Source of the DNA: a virus | Virus record (IMG/VR): IMGVR_UViG_3300020477_000945 | Span: 1-22,193 of that record | Length of the DNA stretch: 22,193 bases | Reading direction: 5' to 3' (one strand) | Shown here: positions 4,387 through 22,193 of the stretch, in pieces | How positions within the stretch are numbered: the stretch's first letter is position 1 | How the letters are laid out: each line of letters starts with the position of its first letter | The notes under the pieces: generated by a model | The model's input: the letters and a program-made list of their open reading frames with translations, nothing else | Databases searched by the model: none | What the model was told of the DNA's origin: nothing | Program-made: the position numbers and the translations under genes

Positions 4387-4784
4387 CGCTTCGCCCCGCA
4401 TTGGCCACACGTCAACGACGCCGGCGAAATCGCGGCGCCGCATTTATCGCACACGGTCCCGGTTCCGAACGGAATCCAACCCCTTGTCCAACTTTTGATT
4501 TCGTCGGGGCTTGTCGTTTGCCCGCTGGCCACGCCCCAACGATCAATGGACGACCGTAATTCCATCCGCGCGACTTGTTGGACCTGCGACGTGTGGTCGA
4601 CAACGTCGGACGCGGCGTAATAGCGTTTTGCGGATTCGGCCAAGTATCGCAACACGGTTAGTTCCCGGACGTCGTCGACCGTCATTTCGGCCAAACGTTT
4701 CGACCAATGTTCGAAACTTTCCGCACGTTGCCGCGCGTCGGACTTTTGTTGCCACTCCAGCCACAGTTCTTTCGACCGTGTCAT
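4383..4784 (-). CDS. Small protein with C-terminal zinc ribbon (133 aa)
   Basis: The N-terminal 90 residues are charged and helical. The C-terminus has four cysteines in two CxxC pairs (C112/C115 and C126/C129), a zinc-ribbon arrangement. The start at 4784 is set by an ATGA overlap with the stop of the helicase-loader gene and by AGGGCGAAGC just upstream; a further in-frame start at 4820 would overlap that gene more. It may bind nucleic acid or a replication partner. I do not recognise the family. Confidence 0.78.
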   Translation of the reverse strand: MTRSKELWLEWQQKSDARQRAESFEHWSKRLAEMTVDDVRELTVLRYLAESAKRYYAASDVVDHTSQVQQVARMELRSSIDRWGVASGQTTSPDEIKSWTRGWIPFGTGTVCDKCGAAISPASLTCGQCGAKR

Positions 4785-5470
4785 TGCTTCGCCCTGTAAG
4801 ACGGCCACGAACAGAAACACGCCAACGCGCCGTCCCGCAACCGGTCAACAATCGCCGGCGTCAATCGTTCTTCGGCCTCTTTGCCGCCCGACACGTTCGC
4901 CGTCACGATTGTTGGACGTTGTTTTCGATAGCGGCCGTCGACAACCTGGAACAAAATCGACGCTTGGTATGGTGACAACGCGCCGACTTGCGGGACCACG
5001 TCGGACACGACCAGGACGTCCGGCGACACTAGGTCCGCCACCATTGCCCGTTCGGAACCGCCCTTGTCGATTCTGTCCCGCATTTCAGCGAACAGCGTTG
5101 GACCGTCGACCCAAGCGCCCGCGTAATTCTTGGCAACGACTCGATACAACAACCCGACGGCCAAATGGTCTTTTCCGGTTCCCGGCGGACCGAACAGAAA
5201 CACGCCGCGGCCGGCGGAAATGTTGTCGTCCAGGTTGATAGCGTATTCCGTGACCGCTTCGCGGACGTCGGTTTTTCGTTTCCTGATTTCGCCGTTCTGG
5301 TCGGCAACGTCGAACGTTGAAATTCGGCAATCCGCGTAACGCGGCCCGACACCGCGCAAGATGTCGACCCAAATTTCGTCGCGAGTTCTACAACGTCCCG
5401 TGTCCGCTTGCGACGGCGTCCGGTTCGTACCGCTGGCCAGCACCGATGCGATTTGTTGTGGTTCGCCCAT
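4781..5470 (-). CDS. DnaC/IstB-like helicase loader ATPase (229 aa)
   Basis: It probably loads the host replicative helicase at the phage origin, working with the initiator encoded just upstream. It is an AAA+ protein: Walker A GPPGTGKDHL (K100), a Walker B-like strand DVLVVSDV (151-158), a sensor-1-like TIVTANVS and a C-terminal IVDRLRDGA with an arginine-finger pattern as in DnaC. The Walker B strand has Ser where the family usually has the first of two Asp residues; one Asp remains. The ATG at 5470 has a good GGAG ribosome site. This start makes the gene overlap the end of the initiator gene by 83 bp in another frame. Confidence 0.88.
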   Translation of the reverse strand: MGEPQQIASVLASGTNRTPSQADTGRCRTRDEIWVDILRGVGPRYADCRISTFDVADQNGEIRKRKTDVREAVTEYAINLDDNISAGRGVFLFGPPGTGKDHLAVGLLYRVVAKNYAGAWVDGPTLFAEMRDRIDKGGSERAMVADLVSPDVLVVSDVVPQVGALSPYQASILFQVVDGRYRKQRPTIVTANVSGGKEAEERLTPAIVDRLRDGALACFCSWPSYRAKQ

Positions 5471-6203
5471 TGTTCTTTTCTCCGAATAATCCCTGGTATT
5501 CGTTCGCGATTGAGTGGTCGACGGCCTTCCGGAATTCGTCCGGCCCGGCGGATTTCCACTTGGACAGCAACGCGCCGACAGCTTCGGCGGACTTATACGG
5601 TTTGTGAATTCGCCGGCGATGCGTCAACCAGCGTTCCAGGTCGATCCGGACGTCCGGCGTGTCCATTTCATCGGGGAACGTGACGTCGCCAACCGTGACG
5701 GCCGGACGTCGTCCCCGTCGCTTCGGTTTCTTTTCCGCGTCCGTCGCTTCGGTGGCAAAAATTCTTTTTTTGCCCCTTACTTCCTTTTCCTTTTCCTTTT
5801 CCTTTTCCTTTTCCTTTTCCTTTTCCGGGGGGTGACCGTCGACGAGTGTTCGACGATCATTCGACGAGTGTTCGTCGAATTCCGGTTGTGGGAAACGAAT
5901 CGACGGACGGTCGATTTTCTGATGTTTCCAGCCTGTTACGTGCCACCAGGAACGCCCGTCGGCCTCAAATTCCACGAGTAACCCGGCGGAAATCAATTCA
6001 CCGATCCACCCGTCAATCTGTTCCGTGGTGAAGTTGTCACCCGGAAACACTTCCATTTTGAGACGTACGGCGGACGCCGGATGCGTCCCACCGTCGTCGC
6101 AAAAATTCCACAGGCCGACGAACATCAGTCGAGCATTCGTCGAACACTCGACGATTTGTTCGCTAGTCCAAAAGTCCGGTTTTATCGTGCGAATTCGTGG
6201 CAT
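5388..6203 (-). CDS. Phage replication initiator, lambda O/DnaD-like (271 aa)
   Basis: The N-terminus MPRIRTIKPDFWTSEQIVEC with NARLMFVGLWNFCDDGG is the winged-helix start of a large family of phage replication proteins. Residues 1-105 are the likely DNA-binding domain. A low-complexity linker follows, including a Lys-Glu run at 127-141, then a basic patch and a C-terminal helical domain (about 170-240: DLERWLTHRRRIHKPYKSAEAV). The protein should bind the origin and recruit the DnaC-like loader encoded downstream. The ATG at 6203 has AAGGGG upstream and overlaps the end of the preceding gene by 41 bp. The linker-coding DNA contains palindromic repeats and a GGAAAA tract that look like an origin. 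Confidence 0.87.
   Translation of the reverse strand: MPRIRTIKPDFWTSEQIVECSTNARLMFVGLWNFCDDGGTHPASAVRLKMEVFPGDNFTTEQIDGWIGELISAGLLVEFEADGRSWWHVTGWKHQKIDRPSIRFPQPEFDEHSSNDRRTLVDGHPPEKEKEKEKEKEKEKEVRGKKRIFATEATDAEKKPKRRGRRPAVTVGDVTFPDEMDTPDVRIDLERWLTHRRRIHKPYKSAEAVGALLSKWKSAGPDEFRKAVDHSIANEYQGLFGEKNNGRTTTNRIGAGQRYEPDAVASGHGTL
5781..5826 (-). repeat. (GGAAAA)n hexanucleotide tract coding Lys-Glu repeats
   Basis: There are seven full GGAAAA units plus four bases, read on the minus strand. The unit is six bases, so slippage adds or removes Lys-Glu pairs without breaking the initiator frame. The tract is purine-only on one strand, AT-richer than its surroundings and starts 12 bp from two palindromic repeats, so it could be a melting element of an origin. 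Confidence 0.9.
5838..5857 (+). repeat. Putative origin repeat 1
   Basis: GTCGACGAGTGTTCGACGAT shares TCGACGAGTGTTCG with the copy 22 bp further on. It lies inside the initiator gene. Confidence 0.6.
5860..5879 (+). repeat. Putative origin repeat 2 (perfect palindrome)
   Basis: TTCGACGAGTGTTCGTCGAA is an 8-bp perfect inverted repeat around GTGT. It is the best member of three related 20-mers in the initiator gene. Confidence 0.62.
6136..6155 (-). repeat. Putative origin repeat 3
   Basis: On the minus strand this reads ATCGTCGAGTGTTCGACGAA, matching the other two repeats apart from A/T swaps in the arms and the end bases. It codes for part of the conserved QIVECSTNAR motif, so some of the likeness could be chance. 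Confidence 0.45.
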
Positions 6204-7488: not shown

Positions 7489-8321
7489 TCCTCGTCGCCC
7501 CCTTCGTCGGTTAGTTGTCGCCACACTTCCGCGTCCCCGCGCCGATACGCGATCGGACGTTCCAGCCGGCGCGACTTCGCAAGATGCCCCGGCCGTTCTT
7601 GCGGATGAATTGTTCGCGTCCCGCTGCCACTCGCCTTGCCGTCCGACGACACCACAGTGTCGAACGCGACGAACAGGACGTGGTCCGCCCACTCTTTCAC
7701 GCGTAACCGAATGGACGACTTCCCCGACGCCGGCGATTGCAAACGCGGTTCGTAGCGGATCCAGTCCGCGCCCGTCGGGTTTGGCACATTCGCGACGCAC
7801 TCGTGGCAAATCAGAACGACATTCGTTCCCGCCTTCGCCATTTGTTCCAGGTCGTTCAGCAACGCAACGAATTCTTGGTAGACGTGCGTATAGCCTTTGC
7901 CGAATCCGTACCCTTCGACGGACGACACGGACCCGCCGTTTTCGTGCGGGACATTTTCGACGACCCACGCCGCGGCGTGTTCTTCCGCCTTCGTCAATGA
8001 GTCAACGACGACAGCGCCGTATTCGGACACCGCTTCCGGATCCGCCGTAACGGCCCGCAACGTGTCCCAATCCGTCACGCGGACCCGCTGAACGTCCAAG
8101 TGGTCGGTTCCGTCTTCCAAATCCATGAACAACACCGGCCCGTCGACGTCTTCCAGCAGCGACGCCAGTTCCGTTTTTCCTACGCCGCCCGGTCCGTAAA
8201 TGACCGTCCGCATTCCGCGCGGTTGAATTCCGCCGACAATCTCAAACGCCGGCCGGCGTTCGTTTTGTTCCGCTGGTTTCGGCGGTCGTTTCGGCCGTGT
8301 CTGTGTTGGTGTTCGTGCCAC
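7485..8321 (-). CDS. Sak4-like RecA-type recombination ATPase (278 aa)
   Basis: This ATPase should promote annealing or strand exchange of phage DNA. Walker A is YGPGGVGKTELA (about 42-53), followed by a short RecA-like core with VLFMDLEDGTD, the Walker B strand GAVVVDSLTK and NVVLICHE. The length and motif order fit the Sak4 (AAA_24-like) group, and the adjacent SSB gene supports it. The start codon is GTG at 8321 with a GGAG ribosome site; the first 80 bp overlap the end of the CsrA gene in another frame. The C-terminus contains HPQERPGHLAKSRR, an arginine/lysine patch often seen in these ATPases. Confidence 0.85.
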   Translation of the reverse strand: MARTPTQTRPKRPPKPAEQNERRPAFEIVGGIQPRGMRTVIYGPGGVGKTELASLLEDVDGPVLFMDLEDGTDHLDVQRVRVTDWDTLRAVTADPEAVSEYGAVVVDSLTKAEEHAAAWVVENVPHENGGSVSSVEGYGFGKGYTHVYQEFVALLNDLEQMAKAGTNVVLICHECVANVPNPTGADWIRYEPRLQSPASGKSSIRLRVKEWADHVLFVAFDTVVSSDGKASGSGTRTIHPQERPGHLAKSRRLERPIAYRRGDAEVWRQLTDEGGDEE

Positions 8322-8487
8322 TTTCTTCGTTCTCCAGTTCGTCCCTTATGATTTCGAATCCGTCCGGCGCGTCGATTGCGACGCGCGCCGTTGTTGTCGC
8401 AACCTTTGTGATGCGGACGACGATTTCGACGTCCTCGTGTCGAATAAAAATCGCCTGTCCGATTTTCCTGGTGAGAACCAATGACAT
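8242..8487 (-). CDS. csrA: Phage-encoded CsrA-like RNA-binding regulator (81 aa)
   Basis: CsrA proteins are small dimers that bind GGA motifs near ribosome binding sites and change translation or mRNA stability. Residues 2-52 align well with bacterial CsrA: SLVLTRKIGQAIFI, VEIVVRITKV, ARVAIDAPDGFEIIRDEL. The key RNA-contacting residues have counterparts (L5/T6/R7 at the N-terminus and R48 near the end of the core). A Thr/Glu-rich tail of about 25 residues lies in the overlap with the Sak4 gene. The ATG at 8487 is one base from the methyltransferase stop and follows GGATAACCGGAGAAGG. That leader holds two GGA triplets, so self-regulation is possible. Confidence 0.92.
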   Translation of the reverse strand: MSLVLTRKIGQAIFIRHEDVEIVVRITKVATTTARVAIDAPDGFEIIRDELENEESGTNTNTDTAETTAETSGTKRTPAGV

Positions 8488-9235: not shown

Positions 9236-9429
9236 TTGCCACCGTCCAACGCGGCGTCCGCTTTTTTGTTCCAGCCCCCGCGCCGCCGGCGCCGTGGTAG
9301 ACACAAGCCCGCCTTTTCCAACTGGCCCCACTCCGCGTCGCCCTTTTGCACCCGGCGCGCCGCTTGCGCGTAACACGCGTCGCATAGCCCGCGGCGTTTC
9401 GCGGTATTCTTGCACGTCAAACACTTCAC
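9232..9429 (-). CDS. Small zinc-binding protein (65 aa)
   Basis: The N-terminus MKCLTCKNTAKRRGLCDACY has two CxxC pairs (C3/C6 and C16/C19), a likely zinc site. The C-terminus is strongly basic (PRRRRRGGWNKK). Short phage proteins with a CxxC-GLCxxCY pattern are common; their role is unknown. A GTG start at 9429 overlaps the preceding stop as GTGA, and the stop overlaps the methyltransferase GTG in the same way. GGAAT lies just upstream of the start. Confidence 0.77.
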   Translation of the reverse strand: MKCLTCKNTAKRRGLCDACYAQAARRVQKGDAEWGQLEKAGLCLPRRRRRGGWNKKADAALDGGK

Positions 9430-9722
9430 GATTCCAGCCCCCAACGGTTCAAAAGTTCAGCCGCGGCCCGGTCGTCGTCTTCGTCCACCGCGGACGGATG
9501 CAGCCGCCCGGCGGTCGCGTTGGTTGTTTGCGCGTCCAAGAATTCACGGACCCAATCGGCGCAAGTAAACCAACGGCCGCCGTCGTTGATTGCCCGCAAT
9601 CGCACGCCGCGGGAACCGACGCGGATCCGCCGGCAAAGAGTTTTCAAATGGACCGTCTTCCCGTTCCGACTTGGGAACAGTTTTGCGGCCTTCGACAGTG
9701 TCAGTAATTCGTGACCGTCCAT
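9426..9722 (-). CDS. DUF1580-like helix-turn-helix protein (98 aa)
   Basis: The N-terminal half, LLTLSKAAKLFPSRNGKTVHLKTLCRRIRVGSRGVRLRAI (given here by its ends: 6 to 45), resembles the DUF1580 family, which I know mainly from planctomycetes: a helix-turn-helix with the pattern AAxxxPxRNGxxVHxxTLxR, a glycine turn and GVRL. It is the first gene of the leftward early operon and faces the rightward genes, so it could be a regulator or an excisionase-like factor. The ATG at 9722 fits the family start; the longer frame upstream is not conserved-looking. The C-terminus is acidic. Regulation targets are not known. Confidence 0.75.
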   Translation of the reverse strand: MDGHELLTLSKAAKLFPSRNGKTVHLKTLCRRIRVGSRGVRLRAINDGGRWFTCADWVREFLDAQTTNATAGRLHPSAVDEDDDRAAAELLNRWGLES

Positions 9723-9876
9723 GACGTCGCCGAACGTACAGATTTGTTTACAGAATTGCAATGGGTTTGTTTTGAATTCGTAACGTTGTCGAAATAGTAA
9801 ATCGGCAAGTTGCCCGTTGTTCTTTTGTTGTTCTGTTGATATAACTTTGCCGATACACATAGCGGAGGTAATTTCT
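9723..9876. promoter_or_regulatory. Divergent intergenic control region
   Basis: This 154-bp AT-richer region separates the leftward early operon from the rightward genes. It contains an inverted repeat, TCGGCAA at 9802-9808 and TTGCCGA at 9847-9853, flanking the putative rightward promoter. It is the natural place for a lysis-lysogeny switch. I see no strong leftward promoter; TTGCAA and TACGTT with 17-bp spacing just upstream of 9722 is a weak possibility. Confidence 0.5.
9817..9845 (+). promoter_or_regulatory. Putative sigma-70-type promoter for the rightward gene
   Basis: TTGTTC at 9817-9822 and TATAAC at 9840-9845 are separated by 17 bp, and a strong ribosome site follows at 9864. The right half of the 7-bp inverted repeat covers the expected transcription start. 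Confidence 0.45.
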
Positions 9877-10179
9877 ATGGTTCCCGCGCAACAAAAAAAT
9901 GGTGGCGGACGTGGCGGGTTTGGTGAGAAATCCAATTCGCGCCGCAAAGCCCCGCGAACGCCGGCCGACTTCGTCGCCCTGTCCGAAGAATGGGCAGGAA
10001 TGGCCAACGAAATGTTGGCGATAGCGGATTCGATGAAATCACTCGACCTGGACACGATGCTGGTCGACGGAGTCACAAAAGGTGACCGCGCGTCGACTCT
10101 GATGTCCGAGTTTCTCGCCAACGTCGAATCCGCGTTGGCTCGCGCGCGTCACCTAAAACGACAGGCCGGCAACGATTGA
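9877..10179 (+). CDS. Unknown protein, first rightward gene (100 aa)
   Basis: The start at 9877 follows a textbook GGAGGT at 9864-9869. The N-terminus is glycine-rich and basic (QQKNGGGRGGFGEKSNSRRK) and the rest is helical and charged (SEEWAGMANEMLAIADSMKSL, then a second helix ending ARARHLKRQAGND). I recognise no domain and see no clear helix-turn-helix. It stands opposite the DUF1580-like gene and just before attP, so a role in the lysogenic decision or integration is possible. An intrinsic terminator follows 15 bp after the stop. Confidence 0.72.
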   Translation: MVPAQQKNGGGRGGFGEKSNSRRKAPRTPADFVALSEEWAGMANEMLAIADSMKSLDLDTMLVDGVTKGDRASTLMSEFLANVESALARARHLKRQAGND

Positions 10180-10446: not shown

Positions 10447-11586
10447 ATGGCCCGAATTCCAAAACTACGGAAGAAAACACGCAACCGCGCCGCCGTCGAT
10501 TACCGCGGCGTCCGATATTTTTTCGGCGAATGGGGATCCGCACAAGCGGACAGGGACTATCGGAAATGGTTGGCCCGGCACGCGGCCGGCGAATTCGACC
10601 AGGAAGACCAGCCCGCCCCTAAGCGGACAATGTCCGTTCGACGCCTTGCGGTTCGGTATCTCGCATTCTGCGAGAAACATTATTCGCCCGCGGAATTTAT
10701 CAACATTCGCGAGTCCGTCCGCGTGGTCGTCAAGTTGTTCGGCAAAACGCCCGCGTCCAATTTCGACGCGGCCCGGTTGCTAACGACACAGTCGGAAATG
10801 ATTCGAAAGAACTGGCGTCACCGCGTTATAAACCAACGTATCAACCGCCTTCGGCGCTGGTTCCGCTGGGCGGTTTCTGTTGTCCCCGCGGCCGGCGTGA
10901 CAGGGACGCAATGCGCCGACTTGAAGACCGTGGACGGTCTGCAACCCGGCAAGTCGAATTTGCAGGGACTCACGCCGCCGGCGTCCCGCGCGGTTCCGCG
11001 GGTTCCCTGGGCGGTTGCCGAATTGGTCTTGCCGTTTGTTTCGGCGGATATCGGTGGAATGATTCGGATTCAGTACGTGTGCGGGATGCGTCCAGGCGAA
11101 GTGGTCGTTATGCGCGAAATCGACATCGACACGTCCGGCCCCGTTTGGTTTTACACCGCGACGGAAGGAACGAAACGCCAGGAGGGTTCCCGCGTTCTCG
11201 AAAAGGCAATCCCGGCAATCGTCCAACCAACAGTCCGGGAATTTTTCACCGCGGACCCGTCGGCGTATATGTTCCAACCAACACGCGCGGACAGGTCGAA
11301 CACGTCCGGCGTCGTCGGACCGCATTACACGACGGCCAGTTATCGCCGCGCCGTGTCTCGCGGAATTGCCCGCGCCCGTCGCGCCGGGTTCGACGTTCCA
11401 CATTGGACGCCCAATCGACTACGGCACGCAATCGGGACGGACGTGTCGGCCCGACTCGGCCAACAGGCCGCGCAACGTTGGCTTGGACACGACAGCCTAG
11501 ACACCACCGCTATATATGCGGAAGTCGTCCGGGAGGAACTTACGACGATTGCAGAACATATAAACGAAATTCTGTGCGACGGTTGA
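10447..11586 (+). CDS. int: Tyrosine-type site-specific integrase (379 aa)
   Basis: It should recombine the phage attP with the host tRNA-Pro gene. An N-terminal arm-binding segment (1-60) and a core-binding domain (about 62-165) precede the catalytic domain. The catalytic residues are R215 in CGMRPGEV, K243 in EGTKRQEG, R326 in TPNRLRHA, H348 in WLGHDS and the nucleophile Y357 in AIYAE. The box II position normally His (HxxR) is Asn323 here. The ATG at 10447 follows GGAG at 10432; another start at 10420 would add nine residues with no better ribosome site. The gene starts 108 bp after the attP core, the usual arrangement. Confidence 0.93.
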   Translation: MARIPKLRKKTRNRAAVDYRGVRYFFGEWGSAQADRDYRKWLARHAAGEFDQEDQPAPKRTMSVRRLAVRYLAFCEKHYSPAEFINIRESVRVVVKLFGKTPASNFDAARLLTTQSEMIRKNWRHRVINQRINRLRRWFRWAVSVVPAAGVTGTQCADLKTVDGLQPGKSNLQGLTPPASRAVPRVPWAVAELVLPFVSADIGGMIRIQYVCGMRPGEVVVMREIDIDTSGPVWFYTATEGTKRQEGSRVLEKAIPAIVQPTVREFFTADPSAYMFQPTRADRSNTSGVVGPHYTTASYRRAVSRGIARARRAGFDVPHWTPNRLRHAIGTDVSARLGQQAAQRWLGHDSLDTTAIYAEVVREELTTIAEHINEILCDG

Positions 11587-11611
11587 CACGTGTTTGTTTG
11601 CGCATTCGAAT
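11583..11611 (+). promoter_or_regulatory. Possible promoter for the pseudokinase-FGE gene
   Basis: A perfect TTGACA at 11583-11588, overlapping the integrase stop, is 17 bp from TCGAAT at 11606-11611. The implied leader would be only about 12 bases, barely including the GGGGGAA ribosome site, so this is tentative. Confidence 0.3.
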
Positions 11612-11630
11612 TGATATTGGGGGAATAACG

Positions 11631-13379
11631 ATGCAAGTTCGTAACAAAAACACAACGACACATTTTCACCGTGTCGAATCGCGTGGCGGAACACGCCGCG
11701 AGACAATGAACCCGGCGCCGTTGTTTTTGAAACGGCCGCACGTCGGACCGGTCGTCGTCGACTTCGTTCCGGTCGACACCGTCGAAGACGAATTGTCGCG
11801 GTTGAACCAACTGGCAACGATTCGGCAATCGTTGGCGCCGGCCGCGCCGGTCGGGCTTTTGTTGCCCTTGGAAATGGGAATACACGACGGCGAATTGTTT
11901 GTCGTTCACAGATTGGTTGCCGGACAGACGATCGACCAGTCCCTAGCGTCCGGCCAGCGAGTCAACCCGGAACGAACCGCCGCCCTGGTTCGCGAATTGT
12001 CCCGACTGGTTGGATACTGTCACGGACTGGACGAACAACACGGCCACATCGTCGCCAGTTCCGTAATTCTCGGAACCGACAACGTGTTGTACCTGTCCGG
12101 ATTGACGGACTCCGTGTCGCACGATCAACCGCCGCCGTTTCCGTCGCTTTTGTTTCCGCGTTGCCAAGACTTGTTTTCGTTGTTGGCTTTGACGTATCGA
12201 CTCCGAACCGGAACGGACTTGCCGAAAACGGATCCGCTTTCCGCGCCGTGGCCACACGACTTGGCACCGCTTGCCGTTTCGGTCTGGAATGGCGACTGGT
12301 CGGGAACCGCGGAACAACTTGGCGTCGCGATTGCCAACCGCCTACGCCGGCCGATTTGGCGCCGACAACGTTACATCGTGTCCGCCCTGGTCGCTGTTGG
12401 CGTTGCCGCCGCCGCGGGATTCTGGTTGCAGACACCCACCCCGCCACCGTCCAAGTGGCGCACCGTCGAACCCTCACACGTCACCGCAGCGGACGCGACA
12501 TTTTATCAACAGGACTTCGCCCACAGTTCCGGCCACGCGTTACGCGCCACCGGACCCGCCGGCGTGCCGCTTTCGCTGATCCCGCCGGGAACGTTTGTCG
12601 CCGGAACCGACGCGGACACCGTCGCGCGAATGATCGGCGACATCACGACAGCCACCAAACCACAACCGCAATTCGTACTTGATTCGTTGGCCCTGGAACT
12701 CCCGCGCCGCGTTGCGTCCGTTGCCGGTTTCTACATTGGGACGACGGAAATAACGGTCGACCAATGGCAGCGTTTCCGACAGGCCACCGGGTATTTGTCG
12801 ACCGCCGAACAAGACGGAACCCCCGGCGGGACGGGACGCCGTGACGACGCGGACGGCGTGTCGCGTTGGATCCGTTCGCGGGATTTCAACTGGAACAATT
12901 CGAAACACGGTCGCCCGCCGATCAATCATCCGGTCCGCAACGTGACGCGCGTTGACGCGAACGCGTTTTGTAAATGGTTGTCCGACGAGTCCGGCGAGAC
13001 CTACCGTTTGCCGACGTCGATAGAATGGGAATATGCGTGCCGCGCGGGTAGTCAAACGTCCTGGTGGCTTGGCGACAGTGCCGCCGCCGTTTCCGCCGCG
13101 GCCGTTGTTGGCCCGCGACGGATACAACGCCCCGATGCCGTGGCCACTTGTGCCCCAAATCCCTGGGGATTGTTCGACACTATAGGCAACGTCGAAGAAT
13201 GGACGTCGACGACAATCGTAGACCGTGAAGGCACGTCGCGCGCGATACTGCGGTCCGGGACGTTTACGTCGTTGCCGTGGAAAGGCCGCAGCGCGTCCGT
13301 GAAGGCTTGCCAGGGACACGTCCCGCACGCTTCGACAGGGTTCCGCGTCGTCCGCGAATTGCCGGCGTCGGACGATTAG
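11631..13379 (+). CDS. Pseudokinase - TM - FGE-sulfatase-fold fusion protein (582 aa)
   Basis: Residues about 35-230 resemble a Ser/Thr kinase fold: a hinge-like LFVVHRLVAGQTIDQSL and a catalytic-loop position reading H137-G-H-IVASSVIL where active kinases have HRDLKPxN. The DFG position is also lost (LSGLTDS), so it should be inactive. A single transmembrane segment follows at about 248-267 after a basic stretch (RRPIWRRQR). Residues about 312-577 are an FGE-sulfatase (C-type-lectin-like) domain: IPPGTFVAGTD, GFYIGTTEITVDQWQRF, RLPTSIEWEYACRAG, GNVEEWTS and the ending TGFRV. Only one Cys lies in the region of the paired FGE active-site cysteines, so formylglycine-generating activity is unlikely. 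The start has GGGGGAA upstream; a long in-frame extension through the integrase gene is not coding. It is probably membrane-anchored with the FGE domain outside. Position beside int suggests a lysogen-expressed accessory gene. Confidence 0.85.
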   Translation: MQVRNKNTTTHFHRVESRGGTRRETMNPAPLFLKRPHVGPVVVDFVPVDTVEDELSRLNQLATIRQSLAPAAPVGLLLPLEMGIHDGELFVVHRLVAGQTIDQSLASGQRVNPERTAALVRELSRLVGYCHGLDEQHGHIVASSVILGTDNVLYLSGLTDSVSHDQPPPFPSLLFPRCQDLFSLLALTYRLRTGTDLPKTDPLSAPWPHDLAPLAVSVWNGDWSGTAEQLGVAIANRLRRPIWRRQRYIVSALVAVGVAAAAGFWLQTPTPPPSKWRTVEPSHVTAADATFYQQDFAHSSGHALRATGPAGVPLSLIPPGTFVAGTDADTVARMIGDITTATKPQPQFVLDSLALELPRRVASVAGFYIGTTEITVDQWQRFRQATGYLSTAEQDGTPGGTGRRDDADGVSRWIRSRDFNWNNSKHGRPPINHPVRNVTRVDANAFCKWLSDESGETYRLPTSIEWEYACRAGSQTSWWLGDSAAAVSAAAVVGPRRIQRPDAVATCAPNPWGLFDTIGNVEEWTSTTIVDREGTSRAILRSGTFTSLPWKGRSASVKACQGHVPHASTGFRVVRELPASDD

Positions 13380-13560: not shown

Positions 13561-14424
13561 CTAGTCGCGGCGAATCAACACCGGGAACGCCTTCCCGTTT
13601 GGCGGACTGGCGGACTTGTTGCCGCCGGCGTCCTCGATTGGCATGGCGTCCAGGACCGCGGCCGTTGGCATTTTCACCGCGGGATCCATTGCCCACAAAA
13701 CGCCCGCCGACTTCGCCCACTTCCGCCAGCGTCGGACCGGCACGATTAGATTGAACCCCTGGACGGACGTTCCGCGCACCAACATTCCGACGATACGTCC
13801 GTCGGCCATTGTGACAGCGCCACCCGACGAACCCGGAAACGCCGTGACCGTGCATTGGTCGTAAATCACTTTGGACCCGCCGATAATGCGGCCCAATTGC
13901 GACATTGTGCCGCGCGTCACCGACCCGGCGCCGGGACTCCCCAACAGGCTTCCGCAATGCCATAGGTCCGACCCGACTTTTGGCAACTGGTCGACCAGGA
14001 AGAACCGACAAGTGGTCGGAATGAAACCCTTTTTCCGGACCCGCAACAACGCCAAGTCGTGTCCGTGCGTCGCGTCCGAATACCGCACGACCCGCGCGTC
14101 GATACTCAACCGCCCGACAATCCGCCCGTTCTCCAACAGAATCCGCACAACCTGCGCGTCGTCGAATTCTACCAGTGTTTTTTTGCCGCCCTTGCCGTCG
14201 ACCACGGTTCGCGTTTTCCGCAACCCGTCGACCACGTGCGCCGCGGTCCAAACCCACGTTACGCCGTCGCGCACGAACGCGATTCCGGAACCCTCCGCGC
14301 CTTTTGCCCGCACGGTTACGGATATTTCCTGTAAGTATTTCGGGACGTCCTCGATTTTCGCGGCGTCCGCCGGCACGCCCATAGCGGCGACCATTGCCGC
14401 GGCGATGAATGTTCGTCGTTCCAT
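13561..14424 (-). CDS. Secreted trypsin-like serine protease (287 aa)
   Basis: The N-terminus MERRTFIAAAMVAAMGVPADAAK is a signal peptide with a probable cut after ADA at 19-22. The chymotrypsin-fold triad is complete: H63 in TAAHVVDG, D123 in GHDLALLRV and S200 in PGSSGGAV. No PDZ domain is visible. After residue 260 the chain is Pro/Asn-rich. A good ribosome site (AAGGGGG) precedes the ATG at 14424; longer upstream frames belong to the next gene. The start is one base from the stop of the membrane-protein gene. It is the last gene of the leftward late operon. Substrate is unknown; attack on envelope or S-layer-type proteins during exit or entry is possible. Confidence 0.87.
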   Translation of the reverse strand: MERRTFIAAAMVAAMGVPADAAKIEDVPKYLQEISVTVRAKGAEGSGIAFVRDGVTWVWTAAHVVDGLRKTRTVVDGKGGKKTLVEFDDAQVVRILLENGRIVGRLSIDARVVRYSDATHGHDLALLRVRKKGFIPTTCRFFLVDQLPKVGSDLWHCGSLLGSPGAGSVTRGTMSQLGRIIGGSKVIYDQCTVTAFPGSSGGAVTMADGRIVGMLVRGTSVQGFNLIVPVRRWRKWAKSAGVLWAMDPAVKMPTAAVLDAMPIEDAGGNKSASPPNGKAFPVLIRRD

Positions 14425-14425
14425 T

Positions 14426-14731
14426 TTAGAAACCCCCTTGTAGCATCCTTGCCATATACGAACCGGCAACGACCGCTTGAACAGTCGCCACCGACACCAA
14501 ACAACACCACCCCGCACGCGGCCACCTGGACCGCATCGTCGCGACGATCCACAACACCGCGCCGGTTCCGGTTACCTTGCACGACACCAGTAATTCCACG
14601 CCGCCGGTTTCGATAAGCGCCAGCGCCAACGGGTTCATTTCCACGAATGGGACTTCGTCGTCGACCAGGGACACCCACGAGTCCAGCCCGGCGACCACGA
14701 CAACCCAACACGCTAGAACGTGCCAACTCAT
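14426..14731 (-). CDS. Small membrane protein (101 aa)
   Basis: Three hydrophobic segments are visible: about 3-22, 45-65 and 74-93. A short acidic loop (SLVDDEVPFVEMNP) lies between the first two. The ATG at 14731 overlaps the upstream stop as ATGA. Being small, with several membrane spans and next to lysis-type genes, it could be a holin or a companion of the secreted protease, but there is no family motif that I recognise. Confidence 0.72.
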   Translation of the reverse strand: MSWHVLACWVVVVAGLDSWVSLVDDEVPFVEMNPLALALIETGGVELLVSCKVTGTGAVLWIVATMRSRWPRAGWCCLVSVATVQAVVAGSYMARMLQGGF

Positions 14732-18267: not shown

Positions 18268-18485
18268 TAGGACGGCGCCACGGGATTGATCGGACTTTCA
18301 CGATAGGCAAGTTGCCGCGTGGCGAATGCTTCCGTCGGATCGGTTTCGGCGTACACTTTGCCGAACACGCGGTCGATCAATGCCAACGAAAACAAACTCG
18401 AGTCCGCTTGGCGACGGATCCCCATTGCCACGTCGGCTTCAAGGATTGATTGCAAATTGACGCGTGAAGCGTTGTTCTCAGCCAT
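18267..18485 (-). CDS. Small conserved-looking phage protein (72 aa)
   Basis: The last third, TDPTEAFATRQLAYRESPINPV, has the look of a small conserved phage protein in tail/lysis regions; function unknown. It starts inside TAATG with the protease stop and has AAGGGA upstream. Its stop shares a base with the following GTG start. Confidence 0.66.
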   Translation of the reverse strand: MAENNASRVNLQSILEADVAMGIRRQADSSLFSLALIDRVFGKVYAETDPTEAFATRQLAYRESPINPVAPS

Positions 18486-19435
18486 TAGTTGTTTCCCTTC
18501 GGGACAGGACTTACACGAACCCGCAACGTCGCGCGGAAACGCCCGCGCCAGTTTTCGAGTTCCACGATTCGTTTTTCGATTGCCGCCAACGCCGCCGGAT
18601 CCAAACCCGGTCCAGGTTCGCCACGCGGTCCCGCTGGTCCCGCCGGCCCTGGTTGCCCGGTTCCCGGTTTCGCCTTTTCGAGTTCGGCAATTCGTTTCTT
18701 TAATTCGAGGATTTCGCGCGTGCGGTCCTTGTCGCCCCAACCCGCCGGACCGCTTGAGAATGGCCACGCGAACGCCAGCGGCGTAAACGGCGGAACGGTC
18801 GTCCCTGACCGTGGCGCCAGAATAGCCACCCGGAATTCCGTTTCCGCCCGCCGCAGGAATGTTCGTAGTTCGGCCAACGGCGCCGCGTACATTTCGACGT
18901 CGTCGGTTCCGTGCGTCGCGACGGCAACCAGTCGACCGCCGACGAATACGCCGGATCCGCTGGACCCGTTGCGGAATTTCCCGCGTAGGACGTCGAACGC
19001 CCAACGGGCACGCGGTAGGTTCGTGATTCGTTCCGGACCGCGGAATTTCAGCCGGACGGTTTCCGGTCCCTTGTTGCGCGGATATCCGATGGACACAAAA
19101 TCCCCCGGCGGACGGGACGGCGGAACAGTCGCCACGCCCGTGACGTCGACCGCCCGCACACGTACCAGGGACAGGTCCGCGTCCGCGTCTTGCATAACGA
19201 CCAGCCCCGCGCCGCGTTTGCGTTTGTCGCCGGTTACGAACGCCACCGCTTGCCCGTCTTCGAAACAATGCGCCGCGGTAACAATCCACGCGCGCGCGCC
19301 GTCGACGGCCACAACGGTCCCGGAACACCCGTCGACGTGGACCGACGCGGCGACGTATGCCGGCACGTCGTCGGCCGCGGCGCACCGCGTGAACAACAAC
19401 AGCAAAACCAACGCGGTTATTTTGTGGCGAACCAT
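18485..19435 (-). CDS. Secreted trypsin-like protease with collagen-like stalk (316 aa)
   Basis: The N-terminus MVRHKITALVLLLLFTRCAAA is a signal peptide. The triad is H56 in TAAHC, D87 in DADLSLVRV and S159 in GSSGSGVF. The C-terminal third is different: a coiled-coil segment (about 240-256, ILELKKRIAELEKA), a Gly-X-Y stretch (260-277, GQPGPAGPAGPRGEPGPG) and a second helix (281-300). This would make trimers or a stalk carrying the protease head. The ATG at 19435 has AAAGGG nearby and lies 19 bp inside the preceding gene. Together with the protease at 13561 it suggests the phage needs to cut proteins outside the membrane. Confidence 0.86.
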   Translation of the reverse strand: MVRHKITALVLLLLFTRCAAADDVPAYVAASVHVDGCSGTVVAVDGARAWIVTAAHCFEDGQAVAFVTGDKRKRGAGLVVMQDADADLSLVRVRAVDVTGVATVPPSRPPGDFVSIGYPRNKGPETVRLKFRGPERITNLPRARWAFDVLRGKFRNGSSGSGVFVGGRLVAVATHGTDDVEMYAAPLAELRTFLRRAETEFRVAILAPRSGTTVPPFTPLAFAWPFSSGPAGWGDKDRTREILELKKRIAELEKAKPGTGQPGPAGPAGPRGEPGPGLDPAALAAIEKRIVELENWRGRFRATLRVRVSPVPKGNN

Positions 19436-19683
19436 TCCAGCCCTTTCATAACAACGGGAATTGCCACCGTCACAACTATCCCAATGGTCCGGATTTCCGT
19501 TCGCAGTTTGAGAATTTGCGCGTTGATAGAATCGGCGCCTTGCCAAATCACTTCGTCGAGATGGGCCAACCGCTTCGTGTGCGAATCGACCACGCGCCAC
19601 ACTTGCCCGGTTGTGTGGTCGTCGCCCAAATCGGTTTTCAATTTCGCCTCAATATCCACGATTCGCCGTTCCAATTCGTCCAT
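19417..19683 (-). CDS. XhlA-like holin-associated membrane protein (88 aa)
   Basis: A long charged helix with heptad-like spacing (DELERRIVDIEAKLKTDL to LRTEIRT) is followed by a single membrane span at about 66-84 (IGIVVTVAIPVVMKGLEWF). This is the plan of the haemolysin XhlA-type proteins found in phage lysis cassettes. It could act as a holin or holin partner. The ATG at 19683 is one base after the glycosyltransferase stop, with GGGGTG upstream. Confidence 0.68.
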   Translation of the reverse strand: MDELERRIVDIEAKLKTDLGDDHTTGQVWRVVDSHTKRLAHLDEVIWQGADSINAQILKLRTEIRTIGIVVTVAIPVVMKGLEWFATK

Positions 19684-20923: not shown

Positions 20924-22193
20924 GCGCGCACATCCATTCCGGTTTTTCGCGAACGACATAGTCGGCCGGCCGGTCGACATCGTGGTCCGCTTGCCACTCG
21001 GCTTGTTCCGCGGACCGTTCTTCGGCGCGTCGTTGCTCGGACGCGTCCCAATCTTCCGCGGTCAACGCCGCGTCGCCGGTCAAGCCCCGCCGCGCGTTGT
21101 ATTCGTCGAAGGTTTCACACACGACGCATTGTCGTTCCAACGGGTCCACCGGCATCGGGTCGCCGGCGAACATTTTGTCGATCAACGCCGACTGGCGCGA
21201 ACGGTTTGTAAAACGAATGACGCCGGCGAATACGTTTAGTTCCCGGTCGACTTGCGGCAAAGGATCGTCGTGGTCGATCAACCATTCCGGACAATCGAAC
21301 GCGTGGCGCGTCAGTTGCGTTTCGGTCCCCATTTCGTTTCGGACGAACAGTTCCGCCGACGGCGAACCCATCGCGGACGAATCTTTGGAATAGATTTGGA
21401 CGCGGTTCGACGGACTGGAACCCGGCGCGGTTCCGTTTTGTAGGACCAGGGTTCGCGTTGCCGACGTGCCGATCCCTATTCCGGTCGACCCAATGTGGAC
21501 GTTGGCGTCGTCGGTTAGCACCAGACCGCCCGACGTCCCGGTGACCAGTTGAAAATCCCCCGTGCCGGCCTTGTACCGCAACCGCGCCGCCGTTGGTGAC
21601 GACTCCGTACCGAAATGAATTGTTTGGTTTGCCGAACCGTCCGGGGTCAAAAACGACATTCCGACGGATCCGGAATTCTCGACGACAATGTCGTCGGCGG
21701 ACGTCGACGCGGTCACGGTCCCGGCGGACGCCGTGTGGACGTGTAGCGAACCGTCGGCGTTGTTCGAGTTTATACCGACACCAATCGGCCACAACATTTG
21801 GTGACCATTCATATCGAGATTGCCGCCAAGTTGCGGCGCAGTGTCTTCGCCAATCGACGACATTCCGTCGCCGGAATCGCCCTGCGGACCAGCACTCCCC
21901 GGCACGCCCTGATGGCCCTGGACGCCCTGCGGACCGGCACTCCCCGGCACGCCTTGATGGCCCTGGACGCCCTGCGGACCGGCACTCCCGGCATCGCCCT
22001 GATGGCCCTGGACGCCCTGCGAACCGGCACTCCCCGGCACGCCCTGATGGCCCTGGACGCCCTGCGAACCGGCACTCCCCGGCACGCCCTGATGGCCCTG
22101 GACGCCCTGCGAACCGGCACTCCCCGGCACGCCCTGATGGCCCTGGACGCCCTGCGGACCGGCACTCCCCGGCACGCCTTGATGGCCCTGGAC
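20913..22193 (-). CDS. Collagen-like tail fibre protein, 5' end beyond the window
   Basis: The open frame enters from the right edge, with 426 residues visible to the stop at 20913. The first about 105 residues are Gly-X-Y collagen-like repeats (GVQ-GHQ-GVP-GSA-GPQ pentads). A Ser/Gly linker (SIGEDTAPQLGGNLDMNGHQ), a beta-rich shaft and a charged C-terminal part (from about 330) follow. GGNLDMNGHQ-type motifs are common in phage tail fibres. The real start is not in the window. Any ATG or GTG in the repeats is an internal codon. Confidence 0.87.
   Translation of the reverse strand, partial: VQGHQGVPGSAGPQGVQGHQGVPGSAGSQGVQGHQGVPGSAGSQGVQGHQGVPGSAGSQGVQGHQGDAGSAGPQGVQGHQGVPGSAGPQGVQGHQGVPGSAGPQGDSGDGMSSIGEDTAPQLGGNLDMNGHQMLWPIGVGINSNNADGSLHVHTASAGTVTASTSADDIVVENSGSVGMSFLTPDGSANQTIHFGTESSPTAARLRYKAGTGDFQLVTGTSGGLVLTDDANVHIGSTGIGIGTSATRTLVLQNGTAPGSSPSNRVQIYSKDSSAMGSPSAELFVRNEMGTETQLTRHAFDCPEWLIDHDDPLPQVDRELNVFAGVIRFTNRSRQSALIDKMFAGDPMPVDPLERQCVVCETFDEYNARRGLTGDAALTAEDWDASEQRRAEERSAEQAEWQADHDVDRPADYVVREKPEWMCAHDD
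21879..22193 (-). repeat. 45-bp tandem repeat (7 units seen) coding collagen-like pentads
   Basis: Seven near-identical 45-bp units run from 21879 to 22193, each coding five Gly-X-Y triplets. They differ mainly by Pro/Ser and Val/Asp changes. The array continues off the right edge, and the window happens to end on a unit boundary. It can expand or contract by recombination or slippage. Confidence 0.92.

Follow-up and report, generated by a model that had tools for sequence, protein, structure and literature searches.

A candidate replication origin inside a phage initiator gene, built from tandem 11-bp iterons and a phased GGA-repeat tract

The window analysed here is an entire virus record of 22,193 bases. 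Its segment 5762-5878 is very likely the replication origin of this phage, placed inside the phage's own initiator gene and working by the mechanism proposed below; the assignment is based on sequence comparison. Origins inside initiator genes are already known (lambda O, pSK41 Rep), and for this initiator family such an origin is apparently undescribed before. The parts are as follows.

5388-6203, minus strand: initiator gene, 271 amino acids, whose N-domain of winged-helix fold and helical C-domain are joined by a disordered linker (about residues 113-171)
4781-5470, minus strand: DnaC/IstB-like helicase loader gene, overlapping the 3' end of the initiator gene (PF01695, 3.5e-15; phrog_50, 1.7e-31)
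5839-5878, minus strand: iterons of the linker, four TCGNCGA units spaced exactly 11 bp apart, kept in relatives
5827-5835, minus strand: C-rich junction between iterons and tract, TCACCCCCC on the coding strand
5781-5826, minus strand: tract of GGA repeats, which is (GGAAAA)7.7 in coding orientation and translates as EKEKEKEK...; purine-rich sequence extends to 5762
6115-6154, minus strand: second array, in the N-domain coding region, with exact units at 6148-6154 and 6137-6143, degenerate units at 6126-6132 and 6115-6121, and 11-bp spacing

The linker units lie at 5839-5845, 5850-5856, 5861-5867 and 5872-5878 and share the core TCGWCGA. The repeat unit is a tandem 11 bp, TCGNCGA-NNNN, whose 7-bp core is pseudo-palindromic, and the coding-strand order through the linker is TCGACGAACAC TCGTCGAATGA TCGTCGAACAC TCGTCGACGGT CACCCCCC and then (GGAAAA)7.7. 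The first-pass annotation of this DNA had described two related 20-bp palindromic repeats at 5838-5857 (GTCGACGAGTGTTCGACGAT) and 5860-5879 (TTCGACGAGTGTTCGTCGAA). Both are present, but the real unit is 11 bp and each 20-bp palindrome is a pair of neighbouring units; the second was called perfectly palindromic, which holds for its 8-bp arms but not for its centre, GTGT. The distance from repeats to tract, given as 12 bp, measures 11 bp (5827-5837). The (GGAAAA)7 polypurine tract was correctly recognised, and consists of 7.7 perfect copies of a 6-bp unit that reads CCTTTT on the plus strand and GGAAAA (polypurine) on the minus strand, which is the coding strand.

These repeats are hardly expected by chance. 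In the whole 22 kb, TCGWCGA pairs no more than 44 bp apart occur only in the two arrays, besides one overlapping pair at 159/162. When the initiator protein was recoded synonymously with the phage's own codon usage, none of 20,000 recodings matched the observed four 11-bp pairs and two of 20,000 gave a run of four units, while in first-order Markov copies of the window the longest run was two units versus the four observed. An 11-bp unit rotates the reading frame, and thus the identical DNA motif encodes differing peptides in successive copies.

The second array starts at coding nt 50 and reads TCGTCGAGTGT TCGACGAATGC TCGACTGATGT TCGTCGGCCTG, i.e. two exact and two degenerate units. A third related copy had been placed at 6136-6155 (ATCGTCGAGTGTTCGACGAA when reversed); it exists, but as units 6137 and 6148 of this separate N-domain array. 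Two exact N-domain units arise in 6.8% of synonymous recodings, so chance is possible in this genome alone, and it is across relatives, not from this genome taken alone, that the N-domain array appears significant. The nt 50 position is common to a subset of relatives and Stenotrophomonas phage SOVA965.

By profile search the initiator belongs with phrog_1408 (1.1e-36) and phrog_2149 (5.9e-32), both replication initiation protein families, and the N-domain itself matches; similarity to the O-like family phrog_678 is weak (1.6e-6 only). In the AlphaFold2 model the N-domain is a winged helix predicted with confidence (pLDDT for residues 11-90 mostly above 90), confidence is low at residues 113-171, as for a disordered linker, and the C-domain is helical. 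The linker array and tract encode residues from about 109 to 147, between the two domains, and the low-confidence linker coincides with the candidate origin in the DNA, in agreement with the first placement of repeats and tract in the linker-coding part. The top PDB matches of the model in Foldseek are the initiator N-domains 4pql and 4pt7, which are weak (E 3.5e-3, TM-score about 0.5 by target length). Searching solved structures with the initiator sequence gave no significant match, and Pfam returned no family at E up to 0.1, the RepA_N domain being absent. The helicase loader proposed next door is borne out by both of its domain matches listed above. In related loci a DnaB-like helicase, a P-like loader or a primase adjoins the initiator gene, and these neighbours fit a variable C-domain that recruits the helicase.

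Relatives were fetched by N-domain patterns alone, with genome contigs and viral contigs contributing 80 loci each, which yielded 158 usable initiator ORFs and a non-redundant set of 94 for shuffling tests. The family is large, and its members occur in proteobacterial, planctomycete and actinobacterial phages and prophages, with the proviso that host assignments of metagenome bins are possibly wrong. In 100 of the 158 ORFs the linker contains two or more exact TCGNCGA units at 11-bp distance (three or more in 46), and in 133 it contains a purine tract. Relatives that keep the protein without the repeats had been named beforehand as the finding that would speak against an origin, and these counts go the other way. 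An array in the N-domain part is found in 51 of the 158 ORFs, where its position is limited to a few fixed places, chiefly nt 50 and 178-200. Among relatives in named genomes, the nearest (L192; Lacipirellula) keeps the iterons and C-rich junction without the GGA tract.

In the 94 non-redundant ORFs we counted 102 linker pairs at 11 bp, whereas synonymous shuffling gives 2.5 (maximum 8 in 300 shuffles), an excess of about 40-fold; for the N-domain part the counts are 43 and 1.5. Protein coding does not explain the linker and N-domain pairs, and selection acts on the DNA. Unit spacings of 11, 22, 33, 44 and 55 bp dominate in this set. Self-similarity computed for any motif peaks at 11, 22 and 33 bp upstream of the tract and at 5 and 10 bp inside it. 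In 41 phase-aligned ORFs, four to five TCGNCGANNNN units are followed by TCaCCCCC and then GGA, so that the family consensus at the junction is TCaCCCCC-GGA. The distance from unit to tract, modulo 11, equals 8 for 99 of 162 units, and the commonest distance is 19 bp, as in this phage.

The tract is marked in its codons as well. Glycine in the tracts is encoded by GGA or GGG in 260 of 269 cases and arginine by AGA or AGG in 89 of 92, whereas GGC and CGN dominate elsewhere in the same genes. The GGA-to-GGA step is 5 bp in 337 of 412 cases; the period is 6 bp in this phage, in L028, in L002 and in Stenotrophomonas phage SOVA965, and 8 bp in actinophages. In this phage the GC content of the tract is 35%, against 56% for the initiator gene, and among relatives of the initiator the mean is 53%. 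Duplex stability falls to a local minimum in the tract, both on family average and in this phage.

These data bear on the idea that the tract is a (GGAAAA)n microsatellite spread by slippage and encoding a tolerated EK linker, with the repeats as low-complexity by-products. The perfect (GGAAAA)7.7 run does resemble a recent expansion, and the linker is disordered in the AlphaFold2 model. But the synonymous-shuffle tests, the rare codons and the 5-bp and 11-bp units lying off the codon period oppose it, and the DNA element is retained in relatives while the peptide diverges. Slippage is already contradicted for the family, and we regard it as highly improbable.

Purine score is weak in 20 ORFs. 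In 11 of them a 5-bp repeat, such as CGAGT, nevertheless exceeds the maximum of the N-domain background, and the phased tract is therefore present in at least 85 of the 94 non-redundant initiator ORFs. CGAGT pentamers that lack GGA and keep the 5-bp period occur in three loci (L213, L220, L229). Because such ORFs keep the period, the conserved property of the tract is a short phased motif, not purine purity or AT content.

Several other properties were considered and rejected for the tract. A G-quadruplex as the general conserved property was dismissed as the CGAGT-type pentamers keep their 5-bp period without GG runs, and strict polypurine character was set aside on the same retained period. 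An AT-rich unwinding element as a family-wide property does not agree with the mean tract GC. An internal translation start after the purine tract (a Shine-Dalgarno reading) was discarded, with an in-frame ATG or GTG within 18 nt in only 4 of 74 relatives.

Viral contigs were also scanned by DNA alone. The scan for three TCGNCGA units gave at least 80 loci, and among the matches listed the array is inside an initiator N-domain ORF in 72 of 80, although this ORF covers on average 13% of the locus; the other eight fall outside a recognised initiator ORF. The scan for the junction plus four GGA pentamers placed 76 of 80 loci inside an initiator ORF, all 76 on its coding strand, and in three of the other four the motif is no more than about 160 bp downstream of the initiator ORF. 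A scan for TCGCGA variant arrays gave 72 of 80 loci inside the initiator ORF. The association of these elements with the initiator gene is thus nearly exclusive.

Some loci deviate from this arrangement. In L361 (6942), L376 (4264) and L380 (6709) the GGA tract is directly downstream of a short initiator ORF, and these initiators are perhaps split, the origin lying between their two parts. In L121, L126 and L130, 11-bp TCGNCGA arrays lie in apparently non-coding DNA, about 400 bp upstream of an initiator ORF in the case of L121; they are possible origins uncoupled from the gene.

Non-coding arrays of this kind would also fit operators used by the initiator (or a different regulator) to control its own operon, with the origin elsewhere, and a second array only 50 nt into the initiator gene points the same way. 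However, the main array lies more than 320 nt into the gene and in fixed phase with the GGA tract, which an operator does not need, and arrays are nearly confined to initiator genes rather than promoters. We consider operators unlikely. A partition or packaging site instead of an origin has a negligible chance of being correct: phage parS sites are likewise short tandem repeats (PMC7157519), but no parA/parB or terminase gene adjoins, and the array is almost always inside the initiator gene with the loader next door.

GGA motifs are recognised by CsrA proteins, and the tract might act in RNA, the GGA repeats of the mRNA being a CsrA/RsmA target. The phage has its own csrA gene (8242-8487, minus strand; PF02599, 4.8e-11), a CsrA-family regulator of interest as the initiator mRNA carries the GGA run, and in the junction-plus-tract scan the tract is always on the coding strand. 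Nevertheless, an RNA target is very unlikely, since the three CGAGT loci do without GGA, the tract is locked in helical phase to the DNA iterons, and it is also present in mycobacterial and Gordonia phages, whose hosts are not known for CsrA.

Variant iterons and tracts are found within the family. In a Klebsiella phage-plasmid (L350), units of TCANTGA type appear in both arrays, with the 11-bp spacing and the tract kept; such a joint change of both unit halves in both arrays is what a site bound by a protein would be expected to show. Two arrays of TCGCGA units occur together with an 8-bp GGGGAACA tract in mycobacteriophage Butters and in a Rhodococcus plasmid, and actinophage Bunnies has repeats similar to those of Butters (11-bp TCGCGA, GGA-containing tract). 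In five viral and prophage loci (L004, L006, L197, L207, L213) the linker has an HNH-nuclease-like insert, and GGTGACGC-like repeats replace TCGNCGA. Pseudomonas phage F10 (L190) and E. coli phage Louie (L191) represent a related subfamily with the sequence MARxRNIKPG and pyrimidine-rich linker repeats of CTGATTC type, which are probably another origin class.

Among known systems, lambda has its origin in the middle of gene O, with inverted-repeat sites beside a strand-asymmetric purine tract and the loader gene adjoining (PMC7466680; PMC5043065). The phage studied here shares the position between the initiator domains, the sites beside an asymmetric purine tract and the adjoining loader. The iteron types do not match: lambda has four iterons, each an inverted repeat, whereas here tandem 11-bp TCGNCGA units form more than one array. 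The tract here is a phased GGA tract, asymmetric in nearly all members; it is AT-rich like the lambda tract in this phage (35% GC), but has 53% GC on family average. The proposal of a lambda-O-style origin is supported by comparison as regards its place in the initiator gene, but not in its 20-bp unit or in conserved AT-richness. The GC-skew shift suggested as a check was not seen, as the skew has no sign change at the candidate origin and stays negative around it.

In pSK41, the winged-helix N-domain of Rep binds four Rep boxes located centrally in rep, the linker encoded by the origin is dispensable for the protein, and the C-domain contacts the host DnaG primase (PMC5703833). The central place of the candidate origin and the predicted winged-helix N-domain are similar here, with weak fold matches (4pql/4pt7), but this initiator has no RepA_N match in Pfam and the phage has its own DnaC-like loader adjoining. 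The phrog_1408/phrog_2149 initiators, including the RepA-like proteins of actinophages, are the same protein family as the phage initiator, and in a search of chiefly openly accessible literature we found no published account of an internal origin for them. Wetzel et al. saw no repeats in the repA origins of mycobacteriophages Miko, Rachaly and Jeeves and guessed the origin to be in or just upstream of repA; those RepA proteins may or may not belong to this family (PMC7157519). DnaA-trio or basal unwinding elements, short tandem strand-specific motifs beside initiator sites, offer an analogy only (cited in PMC5043065): they are trinucleotides, whereas the period here is 5, 6 or 8 bp with a GGA core and the initiator family is different. 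No DnaA box (TTWTNCACA) exists in the window, which sets it apart from Rep_3-type origins with such boxes.

From this anatomy we infer how the origin might work. The winged-helix N-domain would bind the TCGNCGA units, which would lie on one face of the DNA because their 11-bp spacing is one helical turn. Bound units would build a nucleoprotein array abutting, in fixed helical phase, the C-rich junction and the GGA tract; binding strain could open the tract, with the G-rich coding strand or its partner held open, and the C-domain together with the adjacent DnaC-like loader would recruit the replicative helicase. As for the second array, it probably offers the initiator an accessory site that serves looping, titration or autoregulation. 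We suggest tentatively that the (GGANN)n tract could be a new class of origin-opening element: a phased track of a short motif (mostly with a 5-bp period, in some phages with one of 6 or 8 bp), read strand-specifically by the initiator or loader once the array has formed, working without AT-richness and kept, whatever the iteron sequence, in phages from several bacterial phyla.

In this family the probable origin can be read from the initiator gene: 11-bp iterons of TCGNCGA or variant sequence come with a C-rich junction and coding-strand GGA repeats. This predictive rule makes origins testable in many phages at once, among them actinophages that grow in safe laboratory hosts, and supplies small replicon parts for hosts in which few vectors exist. 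It also raises the question of what opens the DNA at a phased GGA track whose average composition is not AT-rich.

Other features of the record were noted. A DUF1580 domain gene is located at 9426-10121 (minus strand), and the best genome match of the initiator N-domain is a Lacipirellula prophage; together they suggest a planctomycete host. A long ORF beside the integrase (10911-13379, plus strand) contains an FGE-sulfatase (formylglycine-generating enzyme-like) domain at residues 596-815; it could be cargo, or host DNA at the flank. Genes for two different trypsin-like serine proteases (Trypsin_2) lie at 13561-14517 and 18485-19600, both on the minus strand, and a 45-bp tandem array of 7 copies at 21878-22193 encodes a collagen-like repeat protein running to the contig end.
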